DNA of 46,865 nt, taken from positions 1-46,865 of the IMG/VR virus record IMGVR_UViG_3300013131_003615; one strand, written 5' to 3'. Source of the stretch: a virus. Shown piece after piece: positions 12,737 to 46,865 of this stretch (positions within the stretch are counted from its first letter, which is position 1; every line of letters begins with the position of its first letter). Under the pieces are notes generated by a model. The model was not told the origin of the DNA. It did no database searches and worked only from the letters and a program-made list of their open reading frames with translations. Both the position numbers and the translations under genes were made by a program.

Positions 12737-12744
12737 TATAAATA
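12737..12744 (+). promoter_or_regulatory. T4-type late promoter octamer TATAAATA before the GIY-YIG gene
   Basis: Exact TATAAATA, the -10 element recognised by the T4 late sigma factor gp55, 22 bases upstream of the start codon at 12767 and its TAGGAG ribosome site. The same octamer stands before the HNH endonuclease gene at 38225. Confidence 0.75.
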
Positions 12745-12766: not shown

Positions 12767-13555
12767 ATGAACGCAATTCCTTATACATATTTACTAAAAT
12801 GCGTACCAATTAACAAGTTTTACTATGGTGTAAGATATTCTAAATCATGTCAACCTTCAGATTTTTGGGTATCGTATTTCACTTCAAGCGAAACAGTAAA
12901 AAAGCTAATAAAAAAATATGGCAAAGAAGCTTTCGTATTTGAAATACGAAAGCAATTTTCTAGTGTAGAATGTGCAAAACAATGGGAAAACAGAGTATTA
13001 AAAAAATGTAAAGTTTTGTATAGGCAGAATGTTTGGCTCAATAAAACTGTTGGTATGGCACTACCTGTATTACTAGGTGAAATTAATCCCTCTAAAAGAA
13101 AAGATGTTAGACAAAAAATATCTGAAAAACTTAAAGCAAATAATCCTATGAAGCAACAATTCACTAGAGATAAGTTATCTAAATCTATTAGATTGGGTTT
13201 CGAAAATGGTAGAAAAGTATGGAATGCGAATAAAATTAATTGTTATTCAGAGGAATCAAGGTTAAAAATGTCAAATTCTAGAAAAGGAAAACCTCCCTGG
13301 AATAGAGGTAAAAAGAATATATTCTCAGAAGAAACTTTGAAAATTATGTCGGAGAAAAAATTAGGGTTGACGACTGGACCCATGGACATACAAACAAAAA
13401 ATAAAATATCAAATGCAAGAAAAAATAAAAAATGGTACAAGAATCCGAATACTAGAGAATGTATATGTTGTTTACCGGGCGACCAACCTAAAGATTGGAT
13501 ACCGGGTATGTATAAAAGTATTAAACCTATCCCACCGCATCTAAAAAGAAAGTAA
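12767..13555 (+). CDS. GIY-YIG homing endonuclease with NUMOD3 repeats
   Basis: 262 residues. The N-terminal GIY-YIG nuclease domain reads YTYLLKC then FYYGVRY, with a conserved Tyr/Arg and a downstream Glu. It is followed by NUMOD3-like DNA-binding repeats (RQKISEKLKANNP, RLKMSNSRKGKPPWNRGKK, KNKISNARKNKKW) and a C-terminal CICCLPGDQPKDWIPG segment. It is a free-standing homing endonuclease inserted between the clamp and clamp-loader genes, replacing nothing essential. It carries its own late-type promoter octamer and a strong ribosome site. The likely target is the homologous intergenic region or a neighbouring gene of a related phage. Confidence 0.9.
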   Translation: MNAIPYTYLLKCVPINKFYYGVRYSKSCQPSDFWVSYFTSSETVKKLIKKYGKEAFVFEIRKQFSSVECAKQWENRVLKKCKVLYRQNVWLNKTVGMALPVLLGEINPSKRKDVRQKISEKLKANNPMKQQFTRDKLSKSIRLGFENGRKVWNANKINCYSEESRLKMSNSRKGKPPWNRGKKNIFSEETLKIMSEKKLGLTTGPMDIQTKNKISNARKNKKWYKNPNTRECICCLPGDQPKDWIPGMYKSIKPIPPHLKRK

Positions 13556-29426: not shown

Positions 29427-29501
29427 CGCGGGGTAGTTCAGTAGGAGAACGGTGGACTCATAATCCACAGGTCGGAGGTGCGAATCCTTCCCCCGCATCC
29501 A
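29427..29501 (+). tRNA. tRNA-Met(CAT), initiator-like
   Basis: Acceptor CGCGGGG pairs with CCCCGCA except for a C1-A72 mismatch, the bacterial initiator hallmark. Anticodon loop CTCATAA, stem GTGGA/TCCAC, T-loop TGCGAAT, CCA encoded. The three G-C pairs usual in the initiator anticodon stem are incomplete and position 73 is T. It is isolated from the other 21 tRNAs. Confidence 0.9.
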
Positions 29502-31354: not shown

Positions 31355-33217
31355 TTACCTCGGTAAGTATTGTTGGTCCACCATTTGCTGATGAAGTCTA
31401 TCACTTGCCAATTGTCTTAATGCTCTAGCATTGTCTACTGTCTTTTGATTTCTATAAATTTCTTTTGGTGCATAAAATGCTGCATCAGTTAAAGCCACCA
31501 TATAACTGTTAAACCCAACAGGAGCTCTAGCAATATTCGCAATAGAAACTCCTGCAGCTGCATCGTTGTCTTGAACATTGGATTTAACCTGTTGTGTGTT
31601 TGTATCTTGTTTCTTTTCTTCTGTTGGCGGTTTATTTTCTATGACGCTATTTATTGGGTCGGCCTTGTTTGTCAAAAAGTTGGATTGTAATGTTGGTATT
31701 TCTTGTATTTGTCCAACTAAATGATTGAGTGATGCTATTTGTAATGGATTTGTAACCACTATACTATTTTGTGATTGTTGTACATTATTCTGTTGTATCG
31801 AAGATACCGATACTGGCGTTTGTTGTTGAACCACATTTAATAAATTTATATTCACAACCGAAGTATTTTGAATTCTAGCTGTATTTTCTTGAGTCAAAGC
31901 TATTGATGACGACGATGAACCACCTGGCGCTTGTAACACACTAAATTGTTGTTGTGAATTTGGTAGTTGAAAAGTTCCAGTAACCACTGTAGTTGGAGTT
32001 TGAAATAAAGACATAGATTGTTGTGAATTTGGTAGTTGAAAAGTTCCAGTAACCACTGTAGTTGGAGTTTGAAATAAAGACATAGATTGTTGTGACTTGT
32101 TTTCTTTATTTGTTTGTTCAGTATTTACTTGTTGTTGTGATGATGAAGCACTTTCAATACTTTGTCTAACAGCTTTCGCTGCAACTTGTTCAGCTAGTCT
32201 TGTTGTTTGTTGTGATAAATTTTCAGTTTCTCTTATTGCGTTTGTTGAAGCTTCTTGTGTAAGTTTTTGTTCTTTTTCTAGATTATTTTCTATTTTGAAG
32301 AGTGTGTCAATTAGTCTATCCATATCAACATAAAGCGGATCTCCTTCATAGACACCAGGTTCTTTTTCACCCATCATAGGGCCATCTGATTGTTTTGGTT
32401 TATTTGCAGAATGTGTTTGTTGTGTATCAAATTCTGATGGAGGCGGTTCAATTTTATCTGTTGTTGTCGTTGTTGATGCTAAATTTTTTTGTAAAGTTTC
32501 TTGAAACTTAGGACAATCTGGACTATAAAGTGGATTGTTTACACAAGGATCTGGTTTGTACTTTAGTTGAAAACTTACATTATAAATTTCTGGCCCGTAT
32601 GGTCCTGCCCAATAATTTGAATCCCTTCCAACAAAACCAAATCGAACATTACTTACTTCATTGGGTCTTCTTAATTTACTCCAATCTTGTTCCCAATTAA
32701 AGGATGTCCAATTATGAAGAAATGTTAAATTATAATTATAACTTTCTAGTATATTACTTCCGCCCTTATCATATAGATTAACATACGCCGATAATTGATC
32801 TAGTTGGCCATTGTCCCAACCATTACCGTTTTTACTGGTCCATTGAAATCTATAACCTGTTGTCACAAGATTTGTACCACTATATGGAAGTGCTTTAGCA
32901 ACATTTACATTTTGATATAGATTAGTTAATCCATAACTGAAGTTTATATTACCGCCTGGACGAATCATAGCGTTTGGACCGCAATATCCAGGATCACCAG
33001 GAGCCCAACAAGTTAAACTGTTAACAAAAGTTCCACCTTGCCAAGTTGATGTAGTTGTGTTGGCCGTCTGAGTATTGTTTACTAAATTTCCCGTAATATC
33101 AACCGTAGCGGTTTGTGAAAAGGCTGCAGCGCTAAGTAACAACAATAGCATACAAATGGCTAAAATAAATCCCTTAGTCCACTTGTAATTATAATGCTTG
33201 TGATTAAATTCTTCCAT
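31355..33217 (-). CDS. Secreted or surface protein with Gln/Thr-rich region and a 23-residue duplication
   Basis: 620 residues. Signal peptide-like start (a basic Tyr/His-rich lead, then FILAICMLLLLLSAAAFSQ). Residues 30-230 are a likely beta-sandwich domain with aromatic strands and paired cysteines (TCWAPGDPGYCGP, PDCPKF). From about 240 the chain is Gln/Ser/Asn/Thr-rich and low complexity, with an exact 23-residue tandem duplication (SQQSMSLFQTPTTVVTGTFQ..., two copies, 69 bases each), then a conserved-looking end. Its stop abuts its neighbour. Envelope or virion-surface role likely; family not recognised. Confidence 0.7.
   Translation of the reverse strand: MEEFNHKHYNYKWTKGFILAICMLLLLLSAAAFSQTATVDITGNLVNNTQTANTTTSTWQGGTFVNSLTCWAPGDPGYCGPNAMIRPGGNINFSYGLTNLYQNVNVAKALPYSGTNLVTTGYRFQWTSKNGNGWDNGQLDQLSAYVNLYDKGGSNILESYNYNLTFLHNWTSFNWEQDWSKLRRPNEVSNVRFGFVGRDSNYWAGPYGPEIYNVSFQLKYKPDPCVNNPLYSPDCPKFQETLQKNLASTTTTTDKIEPPPSEFDTQQTHSANKPKQSDGPMMGEKEPGVYEGDPLYVDMDRLIDTLFKIENNLEKEQKLTQEASTNAIRETENLSQQTTRLAEQVAAKAVRQSIESASSSQQQVNTEQTNKENKSQQSMSLFQTPTTVVTGTFQLPNSQQSMSLFQTPTTVVTGTFQLPNSQQQFSVLQAPGGSSSSSIALTQENTARIQNTSVVNINLLNVVQQQTPVSVSSIQQNNVQQSQNSIVVTNPLQIASLNHLVGQIQEIPTLQSNFLTNKADPINSVIENKPPTEEKKQDTNTQQVKSNVQDNDAAAGVSIANIARAPVGFNSYMVALTDAAFYAPKEIYRNQKTVDNARALRQLASDRLHQQMVDQQYLPR
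31956..32093 (-). repeat. Exact tandem duplication, 2 x 69 bp, inside the secreted protein gene
   Basis: Two copies (31956-32024 and 32025-32093) with the same sequence. Keeps the frame (23 codons per unit). The lack of divergence suggests a recent slippage or recombination event. Confidence 0.9.
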
Positions 33218-34549
33218 TTAGCCTTCTTTAACTAGTTTTGGCATTTTATCGGGGTTCTTCAACCATGCTTCTTTTGCTTGTTCGCCAATCAATCCTTCAA
33301 ATGGGCATGGTGTGCCAGCCATCATCATAGCATCAAATACACGGCGATCCTGACACATCGTAGCAACCGCTGCAACTTTCATACCCATATCATAAAGAGT
33401 TTTGGAAAGTTTTAATCTTTCACAATTCATATCACGCTGTGTTCCACCAAGAGCGAAACCTAAGAATTGAGTTTGTGCTGCACCCGAAACACCGGTAGTA
33501 CATAAGTCTGGACTTCCCCCACTCATCATTGCTGGCGCTATTGCTGTTGGTGGAGGTTGAATAACTCTTTGTGTAATATTCGTATCGTTAATATTACGAT
33601 TCGTCATGTCACCTGTTTGGACATTTTGATTGACATTAGTGCTAGTACTAACATTATTGTTTGTATTTACATTATTACTAGCAGATACATTTTGATTAAA
33701 ATTTCTATTAGTCATATCTCCAGTTTGATTGTTGTTTATTGTACTTGTGCTATTGTTTACATTATTGTTATTGTATGTCATTGTACCTGTGTTGATATTT
33801 TCATTTTTTGAGGTACTTACATTGTTGTTGTTAAGTGTTTGGGTACCAGAATTTATATTTTCGTTTCTATTGGTGATGGTAGACACATTGTTGTTGTTAT
33901 ATGTCATTGTACCCGTATTGACATTGTTGTTGTTAAGTGTTTGGGTACCAGAATTAATATTTTCGTTTCTGTTTGTACTAGTCGTCACATTGTTGTTATT
34001 GTAAGTCATTGTACCAGTATTAACATTGTTATTGTTGAATGTTTGTGTTCCAGAATTAATATTTTCGTTTCTGTTTGTACTAGTCGTCACATTGTTGTTG
34101 TTATATGTCATTGTACCAGTATTAACATTGTTATTGTTGTTGGTAACCGAACCGCTCATATTGTTGTTATTGTTGTATGTTACTGATCCAGACATACGAT
34201 TATCATTTATATTTGTAGCTGTACCACTCTGAACATTATTGTTGGTATTCACATTCGTACTGGTGCTAGTATTGTTATTCGTATTTACCGAATTACTGTT
34301 AACAGTACTTGTTGAAGTGGATGTAGATGTGCTAGTACTCATGTTATTTGTAGTAACAGTACTAGTGCTATTTGATGTAGAATTCGTATCAACTAAGCTT
34401 TTGCCACCATCATAACCACCCTGATTGATTAAAGAAGTACTATTTGTGGTAGTGCCATTAGTAGTACTACTTGTACTCGTATTGGTTGTCTGCGCTATAA
34501 GGCTAGTTGAGAAAACTAAGAAAAGCGCCGCTATCGCCGCTTTTAGCAT
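33218..34549 (-). CDS. Secreted Asn/Thr/Ser-rich repeat protein
   Basis: 443 residues. Signal peptide MLKAAIAALFLVFSTSLIAQ, then about 320 residues of Asn, Thr, Ser and Gly repeats; the clearest unit is 34 residues (NVNTGTMTYNNNNVTTSTN plus RNENINSGTQT...), present about three times with partial units around it. The C-terminal 100 residues are non-repetitive with four cysteines (DLCTTG, DMNCERLKL, ATMCQDRR, TPCPFEG). Architecture suggests an extended beta-solenoid or amyloid-like stalk with a globular end domain, exported to the periplasm or beyond. First gene of the operon; late-type promoter at 34680-34687. Confidence 0.7.
   Translation of the reverse strand: MLKAAIAALFLVFSTSLIAQTTNTSTSSTTNGTTTNSTSLINQGGYDGGKSLVDTNSTSNSTSTVTTNNMSTSTSTSTSTSTVNSNSVNTNNNTSTSTNVNTNNNVQSGTATNINDNRMSGSVTYNNNNNMSGSVTNNNNNVNTGTMTYNNNNVTTSTNRNENINSGTQTFNNNNVNTGTMTYNNNNVTTSTNRNENINSGTQTLNNNNVNTGTMTYNNNNVSTITNRNENINSGTQTLNNNNVSTSKNENINTGTMTYNNNNVNNSTSTINNNQTGDMTNRNFNQNVSASNNVNTNNNVSTSTNVNQNVQTGDMTNRNINDTNITQRVIQPPPTAIAPAMMSGGSPDLCTTGVSGAAQTQFLGFALGGTQRDMNCERLKLSKTLYDMGMKVAAVATMCQDRRVFDAMMMAGTPCPFEGLIGEQAKEAWLKNPDKMPKLVKEG
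33780..34140 (-). repeat. 102-bp coding tandem repeats of the Asn-rich protein
   Basis: Corresponding positions recur at 33833, 33935 and 34037, i.e. exactly 102 bp apart (34 codons), with a few substitutions between copies. Flanked by shorter degenerate units. Confidence 0.85.
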
Positions 34550-34689: not shown

Positions 34690-34712
34690 TTAGAATCCAA
34701 TGGAGATTCTTG

Positions 34713-37202
34713 ATGCGCTTTTACACTAATGTAGTACAATATGGTAACAGAATCCTCGTCAGAGGAATAAATAATGGCAAACATGTACAAGATCGTGTTG
34801 ATTTCAGCCCTTGTCTTTTTGTTAGAAGTCCAAAACCCTCTAAATACAAATCACTTTTTGGTCAAAATCTAGAACAAATTGATTTTGAATCGATCAACGA
34901 AGCAAAAGATTTTGTCAAAAAATATAAGGAAGTTCAAGACTTTCCAATATTTGGCAACACTAATTTTGCCTATCAGTATATAACCAGATCATTCCCCAAC
35001 GATATTGATTTTGATATTAGCCAGATTAAAATCTGGACGATAGATATCGAGACATCTGCAGAATTAGGATTCCCGGATGTTAACGATCCTCTGGAAGAAG
35101 TTCTATTGATCACCATTCAAGATTATAATACGAAGGATATTATTTCCTGGGGATCCAAACATTGTGAAGCAATAAAGAAAAATCATAAGTATATTCGTTG
35201 TAAAGATGAATATGATCTATTGAAAAAGTTTATCGAATACACTGCCTTGGATCATCCCCATATTATTACTGGCTGGAATATAGAGTTTTTCGATATTCCT
35301 TATCTTTGTAATCGAATAAGAAAAATACTCGGCGAGGATTCAATGAAACAATTGTCGCCCTGGAATGTTGTTAACCAAAGAGAAATATCTCGTTTCAAGA
35401 ATTTAGAAACGGTATTTGATATTATGGGTGTATCTGTATTAGATTATCTAGACTTGTATAAGAAGTTTACATATACAGCGCAGGAATCCTACAAGTTAGA
35501 TCATATTGCAAAGGTAGAACTTGGTAAAGAAAAATTATCATATGCTGAGTATGAATCCTTTAGAATGTTTTATAAGAACAATTGGCAAAAGTTTGTCGAG
35601 TATAACGTAGTTGACGTTGAGCTTGTAGATCAACTTGAAGATAAAATGAAGTTGATTGAACTTATTCTCACAATGGCTTATGATGCTAAATGTAATTACG
35701 TCGATGTATTTTCTGCAGTACGAACCTGGGATTGTATTCTGTGGAATCACTTATGGAAAAAAGACATTGTGGTGCATCAGAGAGATGAATCTCGTAGGGG
35801 TCGGCAAATTGAAGGGGCATTTGTTCAAGAACCAGTACCAGGAAAATATGATTGGGTAGTTTCCTTTGATGCAACTAGTCTTTATCCAAGTATCATTATG
35901 CAGTATAATTTGTCACCGGAGACAATGCTACCAGGTGGAGTAGATGTTACTGTTGATTCTTTAATAAGAAAAGAACATTTACTTGATACATTAAAAGAGG
36001 ATAAGTTATGTATGACGGCAAATGGATACACATTTAAAACAGATAAACAAGGAATTTTTCCGGAGATAGTACAAAAGTTATTTGATGACCGACAAAAGTA
36101 TAAGAAGTTGATGATTTCTGCTCAAAAGAAATATGAGGAAACTAAGGATAAAGAATATCAAAAACAGATTGCCAAGTATAATAATTTTCAGATGGCGCGA
36201 AAGATTCAATTAAATTCTCTCTTTGGTGCTTGGGGTAATGAATTCTTTAGATTTTACGATGACCGAATAGCAGAAGGCATTACGATAACAGGGCAGTACA
36301 TCATTAGAACTGTAGGTAAAGCTCTCAATGAATACCTTAATAAGATATGTTCTAGTAACGACTATATTTATTCTTTTTATTCAGATACTGATGCATGTTA
36401 TATTACGCTTAATCCCTTAGTGCAAAAATTCTATAAAGATATGCCAAGGGAAAAGGTAGTAGAAATACTCGATAAAATCTGCGATGAAAAAATAGAGAAA
36501 GCAATTAATAAGGCATGTGATGATCTCATGTCTTATACCAACGCCTTTGAACGAAAGGTGTATTTTAAGCGTGAGGTGATTGCTGATAGAGGTATTTGGG
36601 TAGCAAAGAAAAGATACGCTTTAAACGTATACAATAATGAGGGTGTTCAATATGCTGAACCTAAACTTAAGGTTATGGGATTAGAAATCGTCAGATCATC
36701 TACACCCGAACCTATTAGAGATGCATTAAGAGAAGCAGTGAAATTGGCATTGACAAAAACAGAATTACATCTGCAAAAGTATGTAAGTGATTTTGAGCAG
36801 AAGTTTCGTGAGTTTAAACCCGAGGAGATTGCTTTTCCCAGAGGTGTTAATGGGGTAGAAAAGTATACTGACAGAGCATCAATTTACAAGCAAGGAACTC
36901 CGATGCACGTCCGAGGGTCATTATTGTACAATTATTATCTAAAGCAAATGAAATTAGATAAGAAATATGAATTGATTAGAGAAGGTGATAAGATTAAGTT
37001 CTTATATTTACGTGAACCGAACACTATCGGTGAGAACTGCATCGCATTTGTATCATCCATCCCCGAAGAATTCAATTTGAAGAAGTATGCTGATTATGAT
37101 ACCATGTTCGAGAAAGCATTTCTCGAACCAATGACAACTATTCTAAATGGTATTGGTTGGTCGGCAAAACCCAAAGCATCATTGGAAAGTTTGTTTGCAT
37201 AA
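34713..37202 (+). CDS. 43: Family B DNA polymerase gp43
   Basis: 829 residues from the ATG at 34713 (T4: 898). Exonuclease motif I TIDIETS (about 110-117), polymerase motif A DATSLYPSIIMQYN, motif B KIQLNSLFGAWGNE and motif C YSDTDACY are intact, so both proofreading and synthesis should be active. The C-terminus keeps conserved segments (KVMGLEIVRSSTPEPIRDAL, YTDRASIYKQGTPMHVRG). Works with gp45, gp44/62 and gp41 from this window. No intein or intron is visible in it. Confidence 0.97.
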   Translation: MRFYTNVVQYGNRILVRGINNGKHVQDRVDFSPCLFVRSPKPSKYKSLFGQNLEQIDFESINEAKDFVKKYKEVQDFPIFGNTNFAYQYITRSFPNDIDFDISQIKIWTIDIETSAELGFPDVNDPLEEVLLITIQDYNTKDIISWGSKHCEAIKKNHKYIRCKDEYDLLKKFIEYTALDHPHIITGWNIEFFDIPYLCNRIRKILGEDSMKQLSPWNVVNQREISRFKNLETVFDIMGVSVLDYLDLYKKFTYTAQESYKLDHIAKVELGKEKLSYAEYESFRMFYKNNWQKFVEYNVVDVELVDQLEDKMKLIELILTMAYDAKCNYVDVFSAVRTWDCILWNHLWKKDIVVHQRDESRRGRQIEGAFVQEPVPGKYDWVVSFDATSLYPSIIMQYNLSPETMLPGGVDVTVDSLIRKEHLLDTLKEDKLCMTANGYTFKTDKQGIFPEIVQKLFDDRQKYKKLMISAQKKYEETKDKEYQKQIAKYNNFQMARKIQLNSLFGAWGNEFFRFYDDRIAEGITITGQYIIRTVGKALNEYLNKICSSNDYIYSFYSDTDACYITLNPLVQKFYKDMPREKVVEILDKICDEKIEKAINKACDDLMSYTNAFERKVYFKREVIADRGIWVAKKRYALNVYNNEGVQYAEPKLKVMGLEIVRSSTPEPIRDALREAVKLALTKTELHLQKYVSDFEQKFREFKPEEIAFPRGVNGVEKYTDRASIYKQGTPMHVRGSLLYNYYLKQMKLDKKYELIREGDKIKFLYLREPNTIGENCIAFVSSIPEEFNLKKYADYDTMFEKAFLEPMTTILNGIGWSAKPKASLESLFA

Positions 37203-37260: not shown

Positions 37261-38187
37261 ATGTCGCTACTAGATAAACTAAAGAAAAATTCTACAATTA
37301 AAGAAACAGAAATACTGAGTAAATCCAAATTCTTCTCCAAGAAGGATATGATTCAAACTTCGGTGCCAATGATGAACGTGGCACTATCAGGTAGTTTGGA
37401 AGGAGGATTGACTCCGGGTCTCACAGTATTTGCCGGTCCATCGAAACATTTTAAAACTGCTTTCTCATTACTTTGCGCTAAGGCGTATCTGGACAAATAT
37501 GAAGATGCTATTGTATTGTTTTATGATTCTGAGTTTGGTAGCCCTCAGTCTTACTTTGATAATTTCGGTATCGACCCAGCCCGTGTTCTTCATACGCCCA
37601 TAACTGATATTGAACAATTGAAGTTTGATAGTATGCAACAGATCAATAATATTGAACGCGGCGATCATGTTATGATTGTGGTTGATTCAGTTGGTAACCT
37701 TGCATCCAAGAAAGAAGTAGAAGATGCTTTAGAAGGTAAATCGGTTGCAGATATGACTCGTGCTAAACAAATGAAGTCATTGTTTAGAATGGTCACACCT
37801 CATCTAACAATTAAAGATATTCCAATGATTGTTGTCAATCACACCTATGCTGAAATAGGATTATTTCCTAAACAGATTGTTTCTGGAGGATGTGTTGTTG
37901 CTGGAACTAATATCATGTTGGCAAATGGATCTTTTAAGGCGGTTGAGGACTTTGAGGTGGGTGATATGGTAAGTACATTGATTGGTCCTAAGGAAGTGAC
38001 ACATATATGGAATCCAGATACACTAGAAAATGGTGAACCAGAATGCTTTGAAATTGAGTTTGATGATGGATATAAGGTAATTTGTTCAGATAAACACAAA
38101 TTCCTAATAGATAATAAATGGGTAGAAGCAAAAAATTTGTCAATCGGTATGAATGCCATAGAGTTAGAGGAGTCGGCAGTATATTAA
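37261..38187 (+). CDS. uvsX: UvsX recombinase, N-terminal half, ending in the N-half of a split intein
   Basis: 308 residues. 1-210 are the N-extein of the RecA-like strand-exchange protein: ATP loop GPSKHFKT (59-66, the UvsX form of Walker A), VDSVGNL and IVVNHTY. The extein stops at VSGG. From Cys211 the chain is an intein N-part: CVVAGTNIML, GDMVSTLIG, then VICSDKHKFLI (block B-type TxxH-like) and ENLSIGM-like end, terminating at TAA after 98 intein residues. The missing C half lies beyond an HNH gene. UvsX activity should require protein trans-splicing. Confidence 0.93.
   Translation: MSLLDKLKKNSTIKETEILSKSKFFSKKDMIQTSVPMMNVALSGSLEGGLTPGLTVFAGPSKHFKTAFSLLCAKAYLDKYEDAIVLFYDSEFGSPQSYFDNFGIDPARVLHTPITDIEQLKFDSMQQINNIERGDHVMIVVDSVGNLASKKEVEDALEGKSVADMTRAKQMKSLFRMVTPHLTIKDIPMIVVNHTYAEIGLFPKQIVSGGCVVAGTNIMLANGSFKAVEDFEVGDMVSTLIGPKEVTHIWNPDTLENGEPECFEIEFDDGYKVICSDKHKFLIDNKWVEAKNLSIGMNAIELEESAVY
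37891..38184 (+). other. N-half of the split intein in UvsX (98 residues)
   Basis: Begins at the catalytic Cys codon 37891-37893 immediately after the extein Gly-Gly and stops without an endonuclease domain or intein C-terminal blocks. It is too short to be a whole intein. Confidence 0.9.
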
Positions 38188-38199
38188 AATTCAGATTTT

Positions 38200-38207
38200 T
38201 ATAAATA
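38200..38207 (+). promoter_or_regulatory. T4-type late promoter octamer TATAAATA before the HNH gene
   Basis: Exact octamer 17 bases upstream of the ATG at 38225, with an AAGGAGA ribosome site between. It lies between the two halves of uvsX. Confidence 0.75.
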
Positions 38208-38224
38208 GTCCATAAGGAGAAATT

Positions 38225-38929
38225 ATGGACTATTCTAAAATATATGAACAATTAATACAAAACGCTATTGATTTTCCTAAAGACGAAAAATATAAGGAAT
38301 TACACCATATTGTCCCTAGGTGCATGGGTGGTTCTGATGATAAAAACAATCTAGTAAGATTAACAGCCCGTCAACATTTTTTAGCACATTGGCTATTATA
38401 TAAAATATACAGAACATCTGCACTTATTCACGCATGGCATAATATGAGCAGAATAGGCGCAGGTCAAGAATATCGAAAAATTAATTCCCATTTATTTGAA
38501 TATTGTAAAAAACACAGAAGTTGGCATTTGTCCGAATCTTGTAAAGGTGAAAAAAATAACTTTTATGGTAAACACCACACAGATGAGGTTAAGTTTAAAC
38601 TGAGCAAATTGCATAAAGAATTAAAATTATGGGAAAAGAGAAGCGACTCTCATAGTAAAAATTTGTTAGCTTCCCAGAAAAAACCAAAAACATCTGAGCA
38701 TAAATCAAAGATAGGTAGGCGCGGGAACATTATGTTGCAACATATAGAAACACTTGAGATAATTCGAGTTTCTAAAACCGATATTAGAACAACAATGCCA
38801 GAATGGGTTAATCCAAGAAGAATATCACCTGAGAAAAAATACAAATGTGCTTATTGTGATGTTGTAACGATCGCAGGAAATTTGAAAAGATGGCATAACG
38901 ATAATTGCAAAAAAAGGAAATTATTATGA
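38225..38929 (+). CDS. Free-standing HNH homing endonuclease between the two uvsX halves
   Basis: 234 residues. HNH domain: ELHHIVPRCMGGSDDKNNLV (HH, then N, with a final His in ARQHFLAHW), followed by a NUMOD3-like stretch (NNFYGKHHTDEVKFKLSKLH) and a C-terminal zinc-finger-like CAYCDVVTIAGNLKRWHNDNC. It has its own late octamer and ribosome site; its stop overlaps the start of the uvsX C-half as ATGA. The likely role is to cut uvsX alleles that lack the insertion and so spread the split-intein arrangement. Confidence 0.92.
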   Translation: MDYSKIYEQLIQNAIDFPKDEKYKELHHIVPRCMGGSDDKNNLVRLTARQHFLAHWLLYKIYRTSALIHAWHNMSRIGAGQEYRKINSHLFEYCKKHRSWHLSESCKGEKNNFYGKHHTDEVKFKLSKLHKELKLWEKRSDSHSKNLLASQKKPKTSEHKSKIGRRGNIMLQHIETLEIIRVSKTDIRTTMPEWVNPRRISPEKKYKCAYCDVVTIAGNLKRWHNDNCKKRKLL

Positions 38930-39030
38930 AAATTAAACACATTAGTAAGGTTGGTACAAGAAAAGTATATGATCTATCGGTAAAAGATGCAGAACATTAT
39001 GTTTTAGAAAACGGCGTGGTAACTCATAAC
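38926..39030 (+). other. C-half of the split intein in UvsX (35 residues)
   Basis: Starts with its own Met, contains the block F-like VYDLSVKDAEHYVLENGVV and ends in the catalytic His-Asn, followed by Thr as the +1 nucleophile. Confidence 0.9.
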
Positions 39031-39465
39031 ACTGGCATTTACTATTCAGCAGATAATATTTTTATTATTGGTCGCCAACAAGAAAAAGAAGGCACTGAAG
39101 TAGTAGGATTTAATTTTATTATGAATGTGGAGAAGTCTAGATTCGTAAGAGAAAAATCTAAGATTCCTATTGAAGTTTCTTTTGAAGGCGGGATTAGCAC
39201 TTGGTCTGGCCTGTTGGATGTAGCAATGGAAGGTGGTTTTGTAGTTAAGCCAAGTAATGGTTGGTATAGTGGACCCACAACAACTAATAATAAATTTAGA
39301 TTAAAAGATACTTATACTAAAGAGTTTTGGATGCCTATCTTAAAAAATCCTGCGTTCCGAGAATATATAGAATCAAAATATAAAATTGCAGGCACAGATA
39401 TGCTACAAAAGCAAATGACTGCCGAAGAACTAGATGAGGAGTACGCAAATGCTAGTGAAGTATGA
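38926..39465 (+). CDS. uvsX: UvsX recombinase, C-terminal half, beginning with the C-half of a split intein
   Basis: 179 residues from the ATG at 38926 (AAAGGAA site). Residues 1-35 are the intein C-part (VYDLSVKDAEHYVLENGVVTHN); splicing Asn codon 39028-39030. The C-extein starts at Thr (39031) with TGIYYSADNIFIIGRQQEKEG, the direct continuation of T4 UvsX after its Gly-Gly. Joined exteins give 210 + 144 = 354 residues, a normal UvsX length. Translation is probably coupled to the HNH stop, or uses read-through transcripts from upstream. Confidence 0.93.
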   Translation: MKIKHISKVGTRKVYDLSVKDAEHYVLENGVVTHNTGIYYSADNIFIIGRQQEKEGTEVVGFNFIMNVEKSRFVREKSKIPIEVSFEGGISTWSGLLDVAMEGGFVVKPSNGWYSGPTTTNNKFRLKDTYTKEFWMPILKNPAFREYIESKYKIAGTDMLQKQMTAEELDEEYANASEV

Positions 39466-43291: not shown

Positions 43292-43366
43292 ACCAGGTTA
43301 GCTCAGCGATAGAGCACTCGACTGATAATCGAGAGGTCAGTGGTTTGATCCCACTACCTGGTACCA
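43292..43366 (+). tRNA. tRNA-Ile(GAT)
   Basis: Acceptor ACCAGGT/ACCTGGT, anticodon loop CTGATAA, T-loop TTTGATC, A73, CCA encoded. The CCA end lies inside an inverted repeat shared with the next element. Confidence 0.95.
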
Positions 43367-43370
43367 TATT

Positions 43371-43451
43371 AGAGCACCGCGTGAGACGGTATTGGTGTGC
43401 TGGAACCCTGCGAAGGGTATCGCTATTCTGGTTCGAATCCAGAGTGCTCTA
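43371..43451 (+). ncRNA. tRNA-like element with an extended acceptor stem
   Basis: AGAGCAC/GTGCTCT acceptor and a perfect T-arm (TCTGG, TTCGAAT, CCAGA). The middle does not form normal D and anticodon arms; instead ACCCT-GCGA-AGGGT makes a GNRA-tetraloop hairpin. The acceptor stem extends outward to 16 bp (43362-43377 with 43444-43459) and no CCA is encoded. Not a normal tRNA; may be a degenerate tRNA or a tRNA-like regulatory RNA. Confidence 0.6.
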
Positions 43452-43463
43452 ATATGGTAATTT

Positions 43464-43543
43464 GGGGGATGGGACTGCTTGGGGTGGTCGCTGCACTTGC
43501 AATGCAGATATTCAGATCGGTTCGATGCCGTTATCCTCCACCA
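43464..43543 (+). tRNA. tRNA-Ala(TGC)
   Basis: Anticodon loop CTTGCAA, acceptor GGGGGAT/ATCCTCC with the G3-U70 alanine identity wobble, CCA encoded. Slightly long. Confidence 0.95.
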
Positions 43544-43551
43544 AAGAATTT

Positions 43552-43626
43552 GGTTCCATAGTATATCGGCGAGTATAGCGCCCTGTCACGGCGCAGGAAC
43601 GGGTTCGAATCCCGTTGGGACCGCCA
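43552..43626 (+). tRNA. tRNA-Asp(GTC)
   Basis: Anticodon loop CTGTCAC on a GCGCC/GGCGC stem, acceptor GGTTCCA/TGGGACC, G73 as expected, CCA encoded. Confidence 0.95.
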
Positions 43627-43632
43627 GTATTT

Positions 43633-43707
43633 GCGGGTATAGCTCAGCGATAGAGCAAGATGCTTTTAACATCGAGGTCGCAGGTTTGATCCCTGCTGCC
43701 CGCACCA
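43633..43707 (+). tRNA. tRNA-Lys(TTT)
   Basis: Acceptor GCGGGTA/TGCCCGC, anticodon loop CTTTTAA, A73, CCA encoded. Confidence 0.95.
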
Positions 43708-43712
43708 GTATT

Positions 43713-43787
43713 GCACCGTTCGACTATCGGGAAGGTCGCCACCCTTTCAAGGTGGAAAGATGGGTTCGATTCCCATACGGTGTACCA
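43713..43787 (+). tRNA. tRNA-Glu(TTC)
   Basis: Anticodon loop CTTTCAA on CCACC/GGTGG, acceptor GCACCGT/ACGGTGT, CCA encoded. Confidence 0.95.
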
Positions 43788-43795
43788 AGTTTTAT

Positions 43796-43867
43796 GCGGG
43801 TTGTTAGAGGAATACGTTTGGCCTTCCAAGCCGAAAGATGCAGGTTCGATGCCTGTAGCCCGCTCCA
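43796..43867 (+). tRNA. tRNA-Gly(TCC)
   Basis: Acceptor GCGGGTT/AGCCCGC, anticodon loop CTTCCAA, T73, CCA encoded. Confidence 0.95.
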
Positions 43868-43875
43868 AGTATTAT

Positions 43876-43953
43876 CCGTCATTAGCTCAGCGGACTTAGA
43901 GCATTCGGCTACGAACTGAAAGGTCAGAGGTTCAAATCCTCTATGACGGTCCA
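43876..43953 (+). tRNA. tRNA-Arg(ACG)
   Basis: Acceptor CCGTCAT/ATGACGG, anticodon loop CTACGAA, T73, CCA encoded. Needs A34-to-inosine editing by a host TadA-type enzyme to read CGC and CGA. Confidence 0.93.
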
Positions 43954-43959
43954 AAGTAT

Positions 43960-44034
43960 CTCGGTGTAGTGTCAACGGCAGCACGGCAGCTTCCAAACCT
44001 GCTTGTGGCAGTTCGAATCTGTCCACCGAGGCCA
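43960..44034 (+). tRNA. tRNA-Trp(CCA)
   Basis: Acceptor CTCGGTG/CACCGAG, loop TTCCAAA, G73 as in bacterial Trp tRNAs, CCA encoded. Positions 31 and 39 are C-C, a mismatch closing the anticodon loop. Confidence 0.85.
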
Positions 44035-44040
44035 GTATGT

Positions 44041-44118
44041 TGGGGGTTAGCTTAGTTAGGTCTAAAGCACTAGTCTTTGAAATTAGGATCACTGGTTCGA
44101 ATCCAGTACCCCTTGCCA
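44041..44118 (+). tRNA. tRNA-Gln(TTG)
   Basis: Anticodon loop CTTTGAA, G73, CCA encoded. The first acceptor pair is T1-T72, a mismatch; Gln tRNAs typically have a weak first pair. Confidence 0.92.
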
Positions 44119-44124
44119 ATCAAT

Positions 44125-44200
44125 GGTGGTTGTAGCACAATGGCAGTGCCCCGGTTTGTGAGACCGTTAAGTGTGAGTTCGAATCTCATCAACCACCCCA
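44125..44200 (+). tRNA. tRNA-His(GTG)
   Basis: Acceptor GTGGTTG/CAACCAC with an extra G at -1 opposite C73, the histidine identity feature; loop TTGTGAG; CCA encoded. Confidence 0.95.
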
Positions 44201-44206
44201 GTATTT

Positions 44207-44282
44207 GCGGGATTAGCTCAGTTGGTAGAGCGGCACGTTTACACCGTGTAGGTCGGCAGTTCGAGACTGTCATTCCGCACCA
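44207..44282 (+). tRNA. tRNA-Val(TAC)
   Basis: Acceptor GCGGGAT/ATTCCGC, anticodon loop TTTACAC on GCACG/CGTGT, A73, CCA encoded. Confidence 0.95.
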
Positions 44283-44287
44283 GTTAT

Positions 44288-44358
44288 GCCTTCGTCGGTT
44301 AGTGGTAAACCAACGGTTTTGTAATCCGTGACTGTCTGTTCGATTCAGACCGAAGGCA
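44288..44358 (+). tRNA. tRNA-Thr(TGT)
   Basis: Acceptor GCCTTCG/CGAAGGC, loop TTTGTAA, A73. The next bases are CCG, so the CCA end is not encoded, unlike its neighbours. Positions 31 and 39 are T-T. Confidence 0.92.
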
Positions 44359-44366
44359 CCGAATAT

Positions 44367-44443
44367 CTGACCGTAGCTCAGCAGGATAGAGCAACGGATT
44401 TCTAATCCGTTGGTCGGGGGTTCGAATCCCTCCGGTCAGGCCA
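44367..44443 (+). tRNA. tRNA-Arg(TCT)
   Basis: Acceptor CTGACCG/CGGTCAG, loop TTTCTAA on ACGGA/TCCGT, G73, CCA encoded. Confidence 0.95.
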
Positions 44444-44458
44444 ATTAAGGAGTTTAAA

Positions 44459-45022
44459 ATGTCAGCAACATGGTTTATTAGTGATACACATTTCGGTCAT
44501 GAAAAAACATGTACCGTATTTAAAAGAGATGATGGGTCTCCGCTTAGACCATTTGCTAGTGCAGAAGAAATGGATGAGGAGATGGTCAAAAGATGGAATG
44601 ACCGTGTATCCAAGAAAGACAAAATATATCACTGCGGCGATGTAGTCATTGCAAGAAAATCACTTGCTATTCTTGATCGTCTTAATGGTGATAAGGTTCT
44701 CATCAAAGGCAATCATGATATCTTTAAACTTGAGGATTACACCAAGCACTTTAGAGATATCAGAGGATACCATGTGATGTCTGGTCTTATTATTAGTCAT
44801 GTTCCAGTACATCCTGATAGCATTGAACGATTCGGATGTAATGTTCATGGACATCTTCATTTCCGAAGAGTGATGAAAGATGATAAGATTGATCCCAGGT
44901 ATTACAATGTAAGCGTAGAGTGTACTAACTTTGCTCCTATTTCGCTCGAAGAACTCAAAGCTAAAATTATAGAGCAAGGTGGTGGTGTCGATATGAAAAA
45001 GTCTCGACACGAAGTAGATTAG
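44459..45022 (+). CDS. Calcineurin-like metallophosphoesterase
   Basis: 187 residues. All metal-site motifs are present: FISDTHFGH (DxH), HCGDVV (GD), IKGNHD (GNHD) and VHGHLHF (GHxH). Prokaryotic members hydrolyse phosphomonoesters or cyclic or dinucleotide phosphates; which substrate is unknown, though a position inside a tRNA cluster raises the possibility of RNA-end chemistry. AAGGAG site after tRNA-Arg. Its stop codon shares its last G with the first base of tRNA-Ser. Confidence 0.88.
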   Translation: MSATWFISDTHFGHEKTCTVFKRDDGSPLRPFASAEEMDEEMVKRWNDRVSKKDKIYHCGDVVIARKSLAILDRLNGDKVLIKGNHDIFKLEDYTKHFRDIRGYHVMSGLIISHVPVHPDSIERFGCNVHGHLHFRRVMKDDKIDPRYYNVSVECTNFAPISLEELKAKIIEQGGGVDMKKSRHEVD

Positions 45023-45113
45023 GAAGGTTGGCAGAGTGGTCTATTGCAGCGGTTTGCTAAACCGTAGGCTGGCAAAAGCTGGCCCATGGGTTCGAATCCC
45101 ATACTTTCCTCCA
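45022..45113 (+). tRNA. tRNA-Ser(GCT)
   Basis: Class II with a long variable arm (AGGCTGGCAAAAGCTGGCC region). Acceptor GGAAGGT/ACTTTCC, loop TTGCTAA, CCA encoded. Overlaps the upstream stop codon by one base. Confidence 0.95.
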
Positions 45114-45114
45114 A

Positions 45115-45189
45115 GGTGATATGACGTAGATGGATGCGTACAGGCATCATAAGCCTAGGAGGTTGGATCGTTACCAACTATCACCTCCA
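45115..45189 (+). tRNA. tRNA-Met(CAT), elongator or Ile2 type
   Basis: Acceptor GGTGATA/TATCACC, loop ATCATAA, CCA encoded. The T-loop is ATCGTTA rather than TTCGANN, and the 27-43 pair is C-A. Could read AUG or, if lysidine-modified, AUA; sequence does not settle it. Confidence 0.8.
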
Positions 45190-45194
45190 TATAA

Positions 45195-45286
45195 GGAAGC
45201 GTGGCAGAGCCCGGTTTATTGCGTTAGTCTTGAAAACTAAAGGATCAGAAATGGTTCCGTGAGTTCGAATCTCACCGTTTCCTCCA
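45195..45286 (+). tRNA. tRNA-Ser(TGA)
   Basis: Class II, acceptor GGAAGCG/CGTTTCC, loop CTTGAAA on TTAGT/ACTAA, CCA encoded. Confidence 0.95.
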
Positions 45287-45294
45287 TAAAATGC

Positions 45295-45323
45295 TTGACA
45301 TTAAATACAAATGCTTATATAAT
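45295..45323 (+). promoter_or_regulatory. Promoter inside the tRNA cluster
   Basis: TTGACA (45295-45300), 17-base spacer, TATAAT (45318-45323), just before tRNA-Asn. It would transcribe Asn, Cys, Tyr and the RNA beyond. Confidence 0.8.
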
Positions 45324-45345
45324 TAAGAAAATGTAGAAAAAATAT

Positions 45346-45421
45346 TCACCAGTAGCTCAGTCGGTAGAGCAGCAGACTGTTAATCTGTTGGTCCGTGGTT
45401 CAACCCCACGCTGGTGAGCCA
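45346..45421 (+). tRNA. tRNA-Asn(GTT)
   Basis: Acceptor TCACCAG/CTGGTGA, loop CTGTTAA, G73 as usual for Asn, CCA encoded. Confidence 0.95.
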
Positions 45422-45428
45422 GTATTAA

Positions 45429-45506
45429 GTGAGGGTGCCTGAGCGGTCCAAAGGAACAGTCTGCAAAACTGTAAAGCCATCGGTTCAAATCCGATCCCTC
45501 ATTCCA
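45429..45506 (+). tRNA. tRNA-Cys(GCA)
   Basis: Acceptor GTGAGGG/CCCTCAT, loop CTGCAAA on ACAGT/ACTGT, T73 (cysteine identity), CCA encoded. Confidence 0.95.
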
Positions 45507-45512
45507 AAATAT

Positions 45513-45601
45513 GGGTGCTGTTCCCTACGGCGGACTGTAAATCCGTTGCCATAATATGTAGGGTGGTTGGCAGTTAGGTTCAATTCCTTCAGTACCCACC
45601 A
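45513..45601 (+). tRNA. tRNA-Tyr(GTA)
   Basis: Class II with long variable arm. Acceptor GGGTGCT/AGTACCC, loop CTGTAAA, A73, CCA encoded. Confidence 0.95.
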
Positions 45602-45795
45602 TAATCCCCGGTCCTACGCCGGTTATCAAGTAGGCGCAATTAGACTAGCGTTAGGGGTCTTAGGTTAGCTATGCGACCTCCCTCCGGGCCACATCCGGTA
45701 GGGTAAAAGACTGTAGCAGGGTCTTACCAGCCCGAAGATGGTACGGACAGGGTAACAACTCAAATCGGGGCTCTTGGGAAAGAGTAGCCGATACC
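45602..45795 (+). ncRNA. Candidate structured RNA between tRNA-Tyr and the amidotransferase-like gene
   Basis: About 190 bases, G+C-rich relative to the genome, without a coding frame. Helices seen: CCCTCCGG...CCGGTAGGG (8 bp, one bulge), GGTAAAAGAC...GTCTTACC (8 bp, bulged), CCTAC...GTAGG, TACCA...TGGTA, a 3' GGCTCT...AGAGTAGCC hairpin and a possible outer CCCCG...CGGGG. It fits neither tRNA, RNase P, tmRNA nor a riboswitch that I recognise. Confidence 0.55.
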
Positions 45796-45824
45796 ATATT
45801 GAAGCATTAACCATAAATATGGTA

Positions 45825-46466
45825 ATGAAAAAACAACGTATAGCATTATTTCACAATCATCCTGAGTGCAGTGTAGAGTGTGCTCATGGCATTCTGAGAG
45901 CATTAAGCTTGGCATTCGATGTCGACGTAATTAATAGAGATGAATTATCTGATGCTGTACTGAGTAAGTATAAGATGATAGCGTTTCCTGGAGGCATAGG
46001 TGATAGTGATAGGTATTATAAGTTGCTAGCTAATAAGCAAGATGTAATACAAAATCAAATTGCTAAGGGTAAACGATATCTTGGTATTTGTATGGGCGCT
46101 TATTGGGCAGGACCACATTACTTTAACATACTTGATAATGTTAATCCTGTTCAATACATTAAAAGACCTAATGCAGAAACGAATAGAAGTTATGGTACGG
46201 TTGTTAATGTTACTTGGAATGGTCATGATGAACTAATGTATTTCTATGATGGATGTAGTTTAATCGGTGATGCAAATACTTTTGAAACTATTGCTACTTA
46301 TAGTAATGGTGACCCTGCAGCAATTATACAAAATAATATCGGAGTCATTGGACCTCATCCAGAGAGTGATATTTACTGGTATAAGAAAAAGTATTTAAAG
46401 CCTTATTGGCATGAATATAGACATCATCAATTATTACTTAAATTTGTTAAACGATTAATGAGATAG
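45825..46466 (+). CDS. BPL_N-like class I glutamine-amidotransferase-fold protein
   Basis: 213 residues from the ATG at 45825; one at 45819 is possible, and neither has a clear ribosome site. RIALFHNHPECSVECAHG opens the fold; MIAFPGGIGDSDRYY and RYLGICMGAYWAG are the oxyanion and nucleophile-elbow regions (Cys in GICMG); IGPHPESD holds the His. Closest family by motif is the biotin-protein-ligase N-terminal type. Role in a phage unknown. An ACCATATT...AATATGGT inverted repeat (from 45793) spans the start. Its stop shares a base with tRNA-Phe. Confidence 0.75.
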   Translation: MKKQRIALFHNHPECSVECAHGILRALSLAFDVDVINRDELSDAVLSKYKMIAFPGGIGDSDRYYKLLANKQDVIQNQIAKGKRYLGICMGAYWAGPHYFNILDNVNPVQYIKRPNAETNRSYGTVVNVTWNGHDELMYFYDGCSLIGDANTFETIATYSNGDPAAIIQNNIGVIGPHPESDIYWYKKKYLKPYWHEYRHHQLLLKFVKRLMR

Positions 46467-46541
46467 CCGCTCTGGTGAAGGAGGTCCTCACGCTAGTCTG
46501 AAGAACTAGAGAACGCGGTTCGATACCGTGGGGCGGCACCA
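46466..46541 (+). tRNA. tRNA-Phe(GAA)
   Basis: Acceptor GCCGCTC/GGGCGGC, loop CTGAAGA on CTAGT/ACTAG, A73, CCA encoded. First base is the last base of the upstream stop codon. Confidence 0.95.
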
Positions 46542-46546
46542 AACAT

Positions 46547-46672
46547 ATGAACAAGTATTTTATCTTTTTTAATAACTTATATTCAAGCACTAAGTTTACT
46601 ATTGTAGAGCTTTTGTCTATCGTGGGCTTGATTTCCTACACATTATATTATATAATTGAATATTATAGATAA
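46547..46672 (+). CDS. Possible small membrane protein (41 aa)
   Basis: ATG at 46547 to TAA 46670-46672. Hydrophobic FTIVELLSIVGLISYTLYYII segment flanked by a polar start and an EYYR end. No clear ribosome site, and it contains a promoter-like element for tRNA-Pro, so it may be a chance frame. Confidence 0.35.
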   Translation: MNKYFIFFNNLYSSTKFTIVELLSIVGLISYTLYYIIEYYR

Positions 46673-46865
46673 CTCGGACAGGTGTTGATGGCGACATACG
46701 TGTTTTGGGAACATGAGTGCCCGATTCGAGCTCGGGGTTCGAGACCACCTCTTTTATATGTTCTACACTACCATATACTAGAGGAATAAGTTTTTCTACG
46801 GTATTCATTTTATTTAATGACAATGCAAGAGCAGTCGGATTTTTAGGATCTAGATACAAATTCTT
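46617..46865 (-). CDS. 3' end of a possible minus-strand gene entering from outside the window
   Basis: The minus-strand frame is open from the window edge. The part before the tRNA (NLYLDPKNPTALALSLNKM, then NTVEKLIPLVYGSVEHIKEVV) reads like real protein. The rest runs antisense through tRNA-Pro and is unlikely to be native. Either the gene ends in a tRNA-derived tail or the frame is partly spurious. Confidence 0.35.
   Translation of the reverse strand, partial: KNLYLDPKNPTALALSLNKMNTVEKLIPLVYGSVEHIKEVVSNPELESGTHVPKTRMSPSTPVRVIYNIQLYNIMCRKSSPR
46628..46656 (+). promoter_or_regulatory. Possible promoter for tRNA-Pro
   Basis: TTGATT (46628-46633), 17-base spacer, TATAAT (46651-46656), 16 bases before the tRNA. 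Confidence 0.55.
46673..46747 (+). tRNA. tRNA-Pro(TGG)
   Basis: Acceptor CTCGGAC/GTTCGAG, anticodon loop TTTGGGA on CGTGT/ACATG, T-arm CCCGA-TTCGAGC-TCGGG, A73, CCA encoded. Position 8 is A instead of T. Confidence 0.9.

Follow-up and report, generated by a model that had tools for sequence, protein, structure and literature searches.

A fractured uvsX gene in a T4-like virus, with nuclease exchange and healing of its split intein among relatives

Fractured genes and the split uvsX locus

In fractured genes, as reported, a split intein interrupts a conserved phage enzyme, and its two parts flank an endonuclease gene that stands on its own; eight enzyme types are reportedly affected, and about half of the fractured loci are said to carry Vsr-like nucleases. 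Here, we describe a member of this known class, the uvsX gene of the IMG/VR virus record IMGVR_UViG_3300013131_003615, whose analyzed stretch of 46,865 nucleotides (nt) is hereafter called the window: the conserved gene lies in two open reading frames (ORFs), each bears an intein half, and a free-standing homing endonuclease gene (HEG) separates them. Its main value lies in a series of alleles in which gain, exchange of the nuclease, loss, and healing can all be followed at a single codon. Compared with the loci described by Dassa et al. 2009 (NAR 37:2560; cited in PMC10448857 and PMC7090010), ours lies in uvsX, and the nuclease of the window is HNH, while many relatives have GIY-YIG nucleases and two (loci L090 and L091) have Vsr-like ones. 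The split PolB intein of the jumbo phage MIJ3 also interrupts a replication gene with an HNH HEG between its halves, the host gene being polB instead of uvsX (PMC6892783). The authors likened the MIJ3 intein to the mini-intein that phage SCTP-2 carries in its PolB (PMC6892783); in that phage, the intein N-half of the window finds only a distant match (40.5%). No paper describing a split intein in uvsX was found, most candidate papers being judged by title and abstract only; a uvsX intein is not described in excerpts of PMC2988022, nor is one mentioned in the Thanatos paper.

The first uvsX ORF (37261-38187, + strand) comprises the UvsX N-extein (37261-37890), whose 210 amino acids (aa) hold the RecA core and end in Val-Ser-Gly-Gly (phrog_97 UvsX, 5.8e-71; phrog_8337, 2e-84; Pfam RecA), followed by the 98-aa intein N-half with its stop codon (37891-38187), which begins with Cys1 (Cys211 of the ORF) and presents C-S-D-K-H as its block B. 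The second ORF (38926-39465, + strand) opens at its own ATG with the 35-aa intein C-half (38926-39030), which ends in His-Asn and is recognized by TIGR01443 intein_Cterm at 30.9 bits (cutoff 15.6), and continues into the 144-aa C-extein with its stop codon (39031-39465), beginning with Thr-Gly and matching Pfam T4_UVSX_C (1e-14) and phrog_18112 (2.1e-69). Once the exteins are joined (210+144 = 354 aa), the RecA/UvsX core and the C-terminal domain are complete, and the protein aligns to T4 UvsX (PDB 3io5, E 4e-106, residues 27-345) without a gap at the junction. The original prediction, made from the letters of this DNA, was exact to the base in its coordinates, frames, and lengths, and had placed the junction of the exteins at the Gly-Gly/Thr-Gly point of T4 UvsX.

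The splice residues are those of a class 1 split intein, namely Cys1, a C-terminal His-Asn, and Thr at +1. Among 93 loci with both halves, a set that includes near-duplicates, all have Cys1 directly after Gly-Gly (93/93), and His-Asn and Thr+1 are found in every complete locus. The joined halves match the gp41-1 split intein (PDB 6qaz, E 2e-6), which is the closest solved intein by sequence, although it is only 24% identical to that of the window and, by its name, belongs to another host gene (the gp41 helicase). The same structure was the best match of a high-confidence predicted model with a Hint fold (predicted local distance difference test, pLDDT, 90.5), the modeled sequence being the intein of a healed contiguous relative and not the window halves.

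The nearest IMG/VR uvsX genes, L112 and L113, are uninterrupted and read straight through the GG|TG codons (GGA|ACA). They share the neighboring genes of the window and are 97 and 96% identical to its N-extein in amino acids and 85 and 83% identical to the joined gene in nucleotides. Relative to them, no base of the host gene was lost or duplicated at the insertion point. Since the nearest relatives are uninterrupted at exactly that point, the insertion is precise and not the result of an assembly error. In addition, a second contig is 99.99% identical across the uvsX locus over 9.5 kb.

Distribution, mobility, and exchange of the endonucleases

An alignment search of IMG/VR retrieved 148 relatives of the intein N-half, and hidden Markov models built for the purpose served to map the best 80 of these loci. 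The same split intein at the same uvsX codon is present in about 75 IMG/VR contigs and, according to protein searches, in 25 phage records corresponding to 19 cultured phages across T4-like genera. The insertion is therefore not rare, being shared by these phages and by dozens of viruses known from environmental sequences. The N-half of the window is at least 51% identical to the fractured-uvsX N-halves of these 25 records. Cultured phages such as PspYZU05, TG1, HY03, Thanatos-1, PM2, Pm5461, EniLVp02, and others resemble the window in insertion codon, intein family, and gene order (N-half 51-62% identical), whereas their HEGs have GIY-YIG-type heads. They are always annotated as a pair of recombination proteins flanking an endonuclease or a hypothetical gene, and the PHROG families 8337 and 18112 amount to one uvsX half each.

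Across the 93 loci, the space between the halves holds an HNH head with a NUMOD3/zinc tail in 29 (including the window), a GIY-YIG-type head with a tail of the HNH-class kind or another in 32, another GIY-YIG-like class, whose tail is mostly of the I-TevI type, in seven, and a Vsr-like nuclease in two; there is no HEG in 16, and the intein is contiguous in seven. The HNH identity proposed for the endonuclease of this fractured uvsX holds, but the same site accommodates other types of nuclease as well. The two Vsr-like HEGs are large (L090:1206-2663 and L091:3133-4431; phrog_3339, with weak Pfam matches to MTES_1575 / DUF559), and may be of the same kind as the nucleases in the fractured genes first described. 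Separately, in PspYZU05, Thanatos-1, and PM2, an ORF of 55-61 aa without an assigned function separates the intein C-half from the HEG (L002:4794-4979, L005:4560-4727, and L006:4738-4920, respectively), and the three ORFs look alike.

The HEG of the window (38225-38929, 234 aa, same strand as both uvsX ORFs), which as a whole matches the homing endonucleases of phrog_655 (1.7e-50) and scores 18.4 bits with Pfam HNH, slightly under the cutoff of 21.4, combines two parts. Its catalytic head (aa 1-100, 38225-38524) is HNH and MobE-like: Glu25 and His27-His28 are invariant in 18 relatives, and the best phage matches are the MobE genes of T6 and relatives (52.5% identity), which are free-standing between nrdA and nrdB, without an intein, and carry another tail. 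The DNA-binding tail (aa 101-234 and stop codon, 38525-38929) has NUMOD3 above its cutoff, followed by a CxxC...RWHxDNC zinc-finger-like end, and is only 25% identical to MobE (28.5 bits). Among 50,697 phage records, the top matches of this tail were the GIY-YIG HEGs of fractured uvsX genes (PspYZU05, 76 bits; EniLVp02, 72 bits; TG1, 53 bits), while the best HEG from any other site scored 50 bits; the tails of two further HNH-class HEGs had the same top matches. Judged by these matches, the HEG is a mosaic of a MobE-like HNH head on a fractured-uvsX tail; the simplest reading would be that the tail recognizes the uvsX site that these HEGs have in common and that the cutting head was replaced. 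A single ancestry of HNH versus GIY heads is not supported, as the tail tree requires three head changes, at least two of them forced by strong branches.

The T4-type late promoter octamer TATAAATA is located at 38200-38207, 17 nt upstream of the HEG start, and a Shine-Dalgarno sequence, AAGGAG, at 38214-38219, in agreement with the late octamer and ribosome site originally attributed to the HNH gene. Across the window alone, the octamer is not above chance (seven seen against 11.7 expected). Among the relatives, it occurs within 60 nt upstream of 47 out of 67 HEGs, with about 0.8% expected per site, and of 18 out of 21 distinct HNH-class HEGs. As the octamer is kept upstream of HEGs in relatives, the late promoter of the window is probably real. 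At its other end, the HEG stop overlaps the start codon of the second uvsX ORF (ATG at 38926) as ATGA, preceded by the Shine-Dalgarno sequence AAAGGA (38913-38918). The start of the intein C-half overlaps the end of the HEG in 32 out of 49 distinct cases, and does so as ATGA in 19 of the 49 distinct HEGs; a translational coupling of HEG and UvsX-C is possible.

The histories of exteins and inteins differ. In the extein tree, the window falls inside an all-empty clade (support 98), whereas in the intein tree it is placed among other HNH-class inteins. Similarly, L050 and L052 have exteins 77.9% identical in nucleotides, while their intein N-halves are 97.3% and their HEG inserts 98.5% identical. 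From these comparisons, the uvsX intein is mobile and has spread horizontally. The near-identical genomes L065 and L071 carry the same split intein family with different HEGs, and their identity decreases from 100 to 91% towards the insert, a gradient that would be expected from co-conversion. In another pair, L088 and L083, the genomes are 98-99% identical, whereas the uvsX inteins at the same codon are 63% identical in nucleotides, one being contiguous and the other split with a HEG; as read from these genomes, this is an intein replacement at one site.

Decay, healing, and alternative explanations

HEGs decay in place: that of TG1 is frameshifted, that of VmeM-32 is internally deleted, and that of L080 is a deleted copy of the HEG of L083, the two genomes being 99.4% identical. 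Within one clade, L050, L052, L056, and L057 retain the HEG, L053-L055 and L044 present two different HEG deletions with uvsX still split, and L046-L048 present a third deletion in which the intein halves are fused in frame. Between L048 and L056, whose flanks are 99.9% and 98.5% identical, a single clean deletion of 726 nt yields one ORF with a contiguous mini-intein. Within its intein, the healed gene still has the GAGGAAATTATG ribosome site and the start codon of the earlier split state, and therefore the direction was from split to contiguous. Moreover, the healed inteins of L046 and L048 are identical in extein backgrounds that are 79% identical, which indicates that the healed form itself moved.

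We also considered whether contiguous inteins without a HEG are always healed split inteins, and this was rejected. Relics of a former split are found only in L046-L048, and probably in L084/L085. The L206, L207, L213, and L214 inteins are contiguous without a clear relic of a split, as is that of L086/L088, which is only 63% identical to the intein of L083 despite a 98-99% identical flanking genome; these contiguous inteins may be of other origins.

Considering the anatomy of the locus together with the population evidence, we infer that this uvsX is very probably a fractured-gene homing element, in which UvsX is trans-spliced and the HEG drives homing into empty uvsX alleles. In such an element, the two uvsX ORFs would be translated separately, and the intein halves (98 + 35 aa) would associate into one Hint domain that trans-splices the exteins into a scarless UvsX of 354 aa, on which the supply of UvsX would depend. 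The HNH endonuclease, which presumably owes at least part of its expression to a late promoter of its own, would cut insert-free uvsX alleles at or near the GG/TG codons, and repair on the occupied copy would spread the intein halves and the HEG together, along with some flanking DNA. Once the HEG is lost, the intein can either stay split or be healed into a contiguous mini-intein. Several points weigh against this interpretation. Trans-splicing and cleavage are themselves inferred; the intein N-half alone falls just under the curated cutoffs of Pfam and TIGR intein models (TIGR01445, 21.3 versus 24.5); and the block B Thr is replaced by Ser (SxxH, not TxxH), although gp41-1 likewise has Ser there. 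The Ser and His of block B are invariant within the uvsX intein family. The structural model of the HEG is of only moderate quality (pLDDT 77.7), and a fold search with it gave no significant match. Finally, no second uvsX was found in the record, which is a 46.9-kb fragment, so that an intact copy could sit outside it; the original prediction had taken such a copy as evidence against itself, and its absence stands for this fragment. Conversely, the splice residues, the empty allele, the intein family, and the HEG family all fit the proposed membership in the class of fractured genes.

Three other explanations should be weighed. The records are metagenomic and inteins with in-frame endonucleases are common, and hence the arrangement could be a sequencing or assembly artifact, or a frameshifted continuous protein in which the HEG is nested in frame in the intein. 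This can practically be dismissed, as the ORFs have their own start codons and Shine-Dalgarno sites, the frames and classes of the HEGs relative to the halves vary among relatives, and independent genomes, including the 19 cultured phages from different laboratories and the second contig of the same virus, refute it; with the uninterrupted alleles, they exclude the assembly error or frameshift that had been named as fatal to the original claim. The two pieces of UvsX could instead work as a non-covalent complex without splicing, the intein halves being relics, and excerpts of PMC2988022 describe T4-like enzymes that are split and work in this way, NrdA of phage Aeh1 and gp43 of phage 25. For uvsX we regard this as very improbable: Cys1, His-Asn, and Thr+1 are kept without exception down to about 50% intein identity, the intein N-half is still 51-63% identical between distant phages, and healed alleles retain the full intein instead of losing it.

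A more serious objection, which we nonetheless consider unlikely, is that the HEG is an independent gene that entered a uvsX intein already in place, whether split or contiguous, and homes alone (intronless homing), the intein halves being passive passengers. The class of the HEG can indeed change while the intein is kept (L065 and L071), HEG-less split and contiguous uvsX inteins exist, and free-standing T4 HEGs that target neighboring genes are known (PMC2988022). In contrast, intein and HEG moved jointly into the diverged exteins of L050 and L052, and the tail is locus-specific across head types, which would fit a tail that recognizes one common uvsX site. We retain the fractured-gene homing element as the best explanation.

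Genomic surroundings and meaning of the allele series

The fractured uvsX is located in a T4-like replication block, between a DNA polymerase gene (34710-37202) and a 104-aa ORF followed by a DnaB-like replicative helicase. A second intein of the same virus is found in another recombination gene, gp46 (SbcC-like, phrog_77; 2-1696, + strand), whose first coding stretch, at the very edge of the window, is an intein C-half (...GIVSHN | Ser, nt 2-106). It is located just before STILDAI, apparently at the P-loop, and the matching N-half lies off the window. A further homing-endonuclease-like gene (phrog_314) is at 12767-13552 (+ strand), with the TATAAATA octamer at 12737-12744. Tandem repeats of 102 bp (33819-34138) and 69 bp (31949-32095) lie inside the large minus-strand ORFs 33221-34549 and 31358-33217, respectively, the former without a Pfam match and the latter without a PHROG match. 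Nineteen tRNA genes are clustered at 43292-46747, and a single tRNA-Met is at 29427.

UvsX is the strand-exchange protein used by T4-type homing, and thus the element sits in the machinery that copies it. We consider it probable that fractured uvsX genes constitute a modular and reversible homing system, in which the tail stays with the site, HNH and GIY-YIG heads are swapped, entire HEGs can also be replaced, and the split is a transient state that a HEG deletion can heal, so that fractured genes would be stages of a cycle and not an end point. Many natural split inteins are available in the uvsX family, together with sister inteins that are contiguous and with phages in culture. The alleles of this one gene range from empty and occupied to nuclease-swapped, nuclease-less, and healed, some of them as near-identical genome pairs, and with such a series, the origin and reversion of split inteins, as well as the change of heads without loss of the target, are directly testable.
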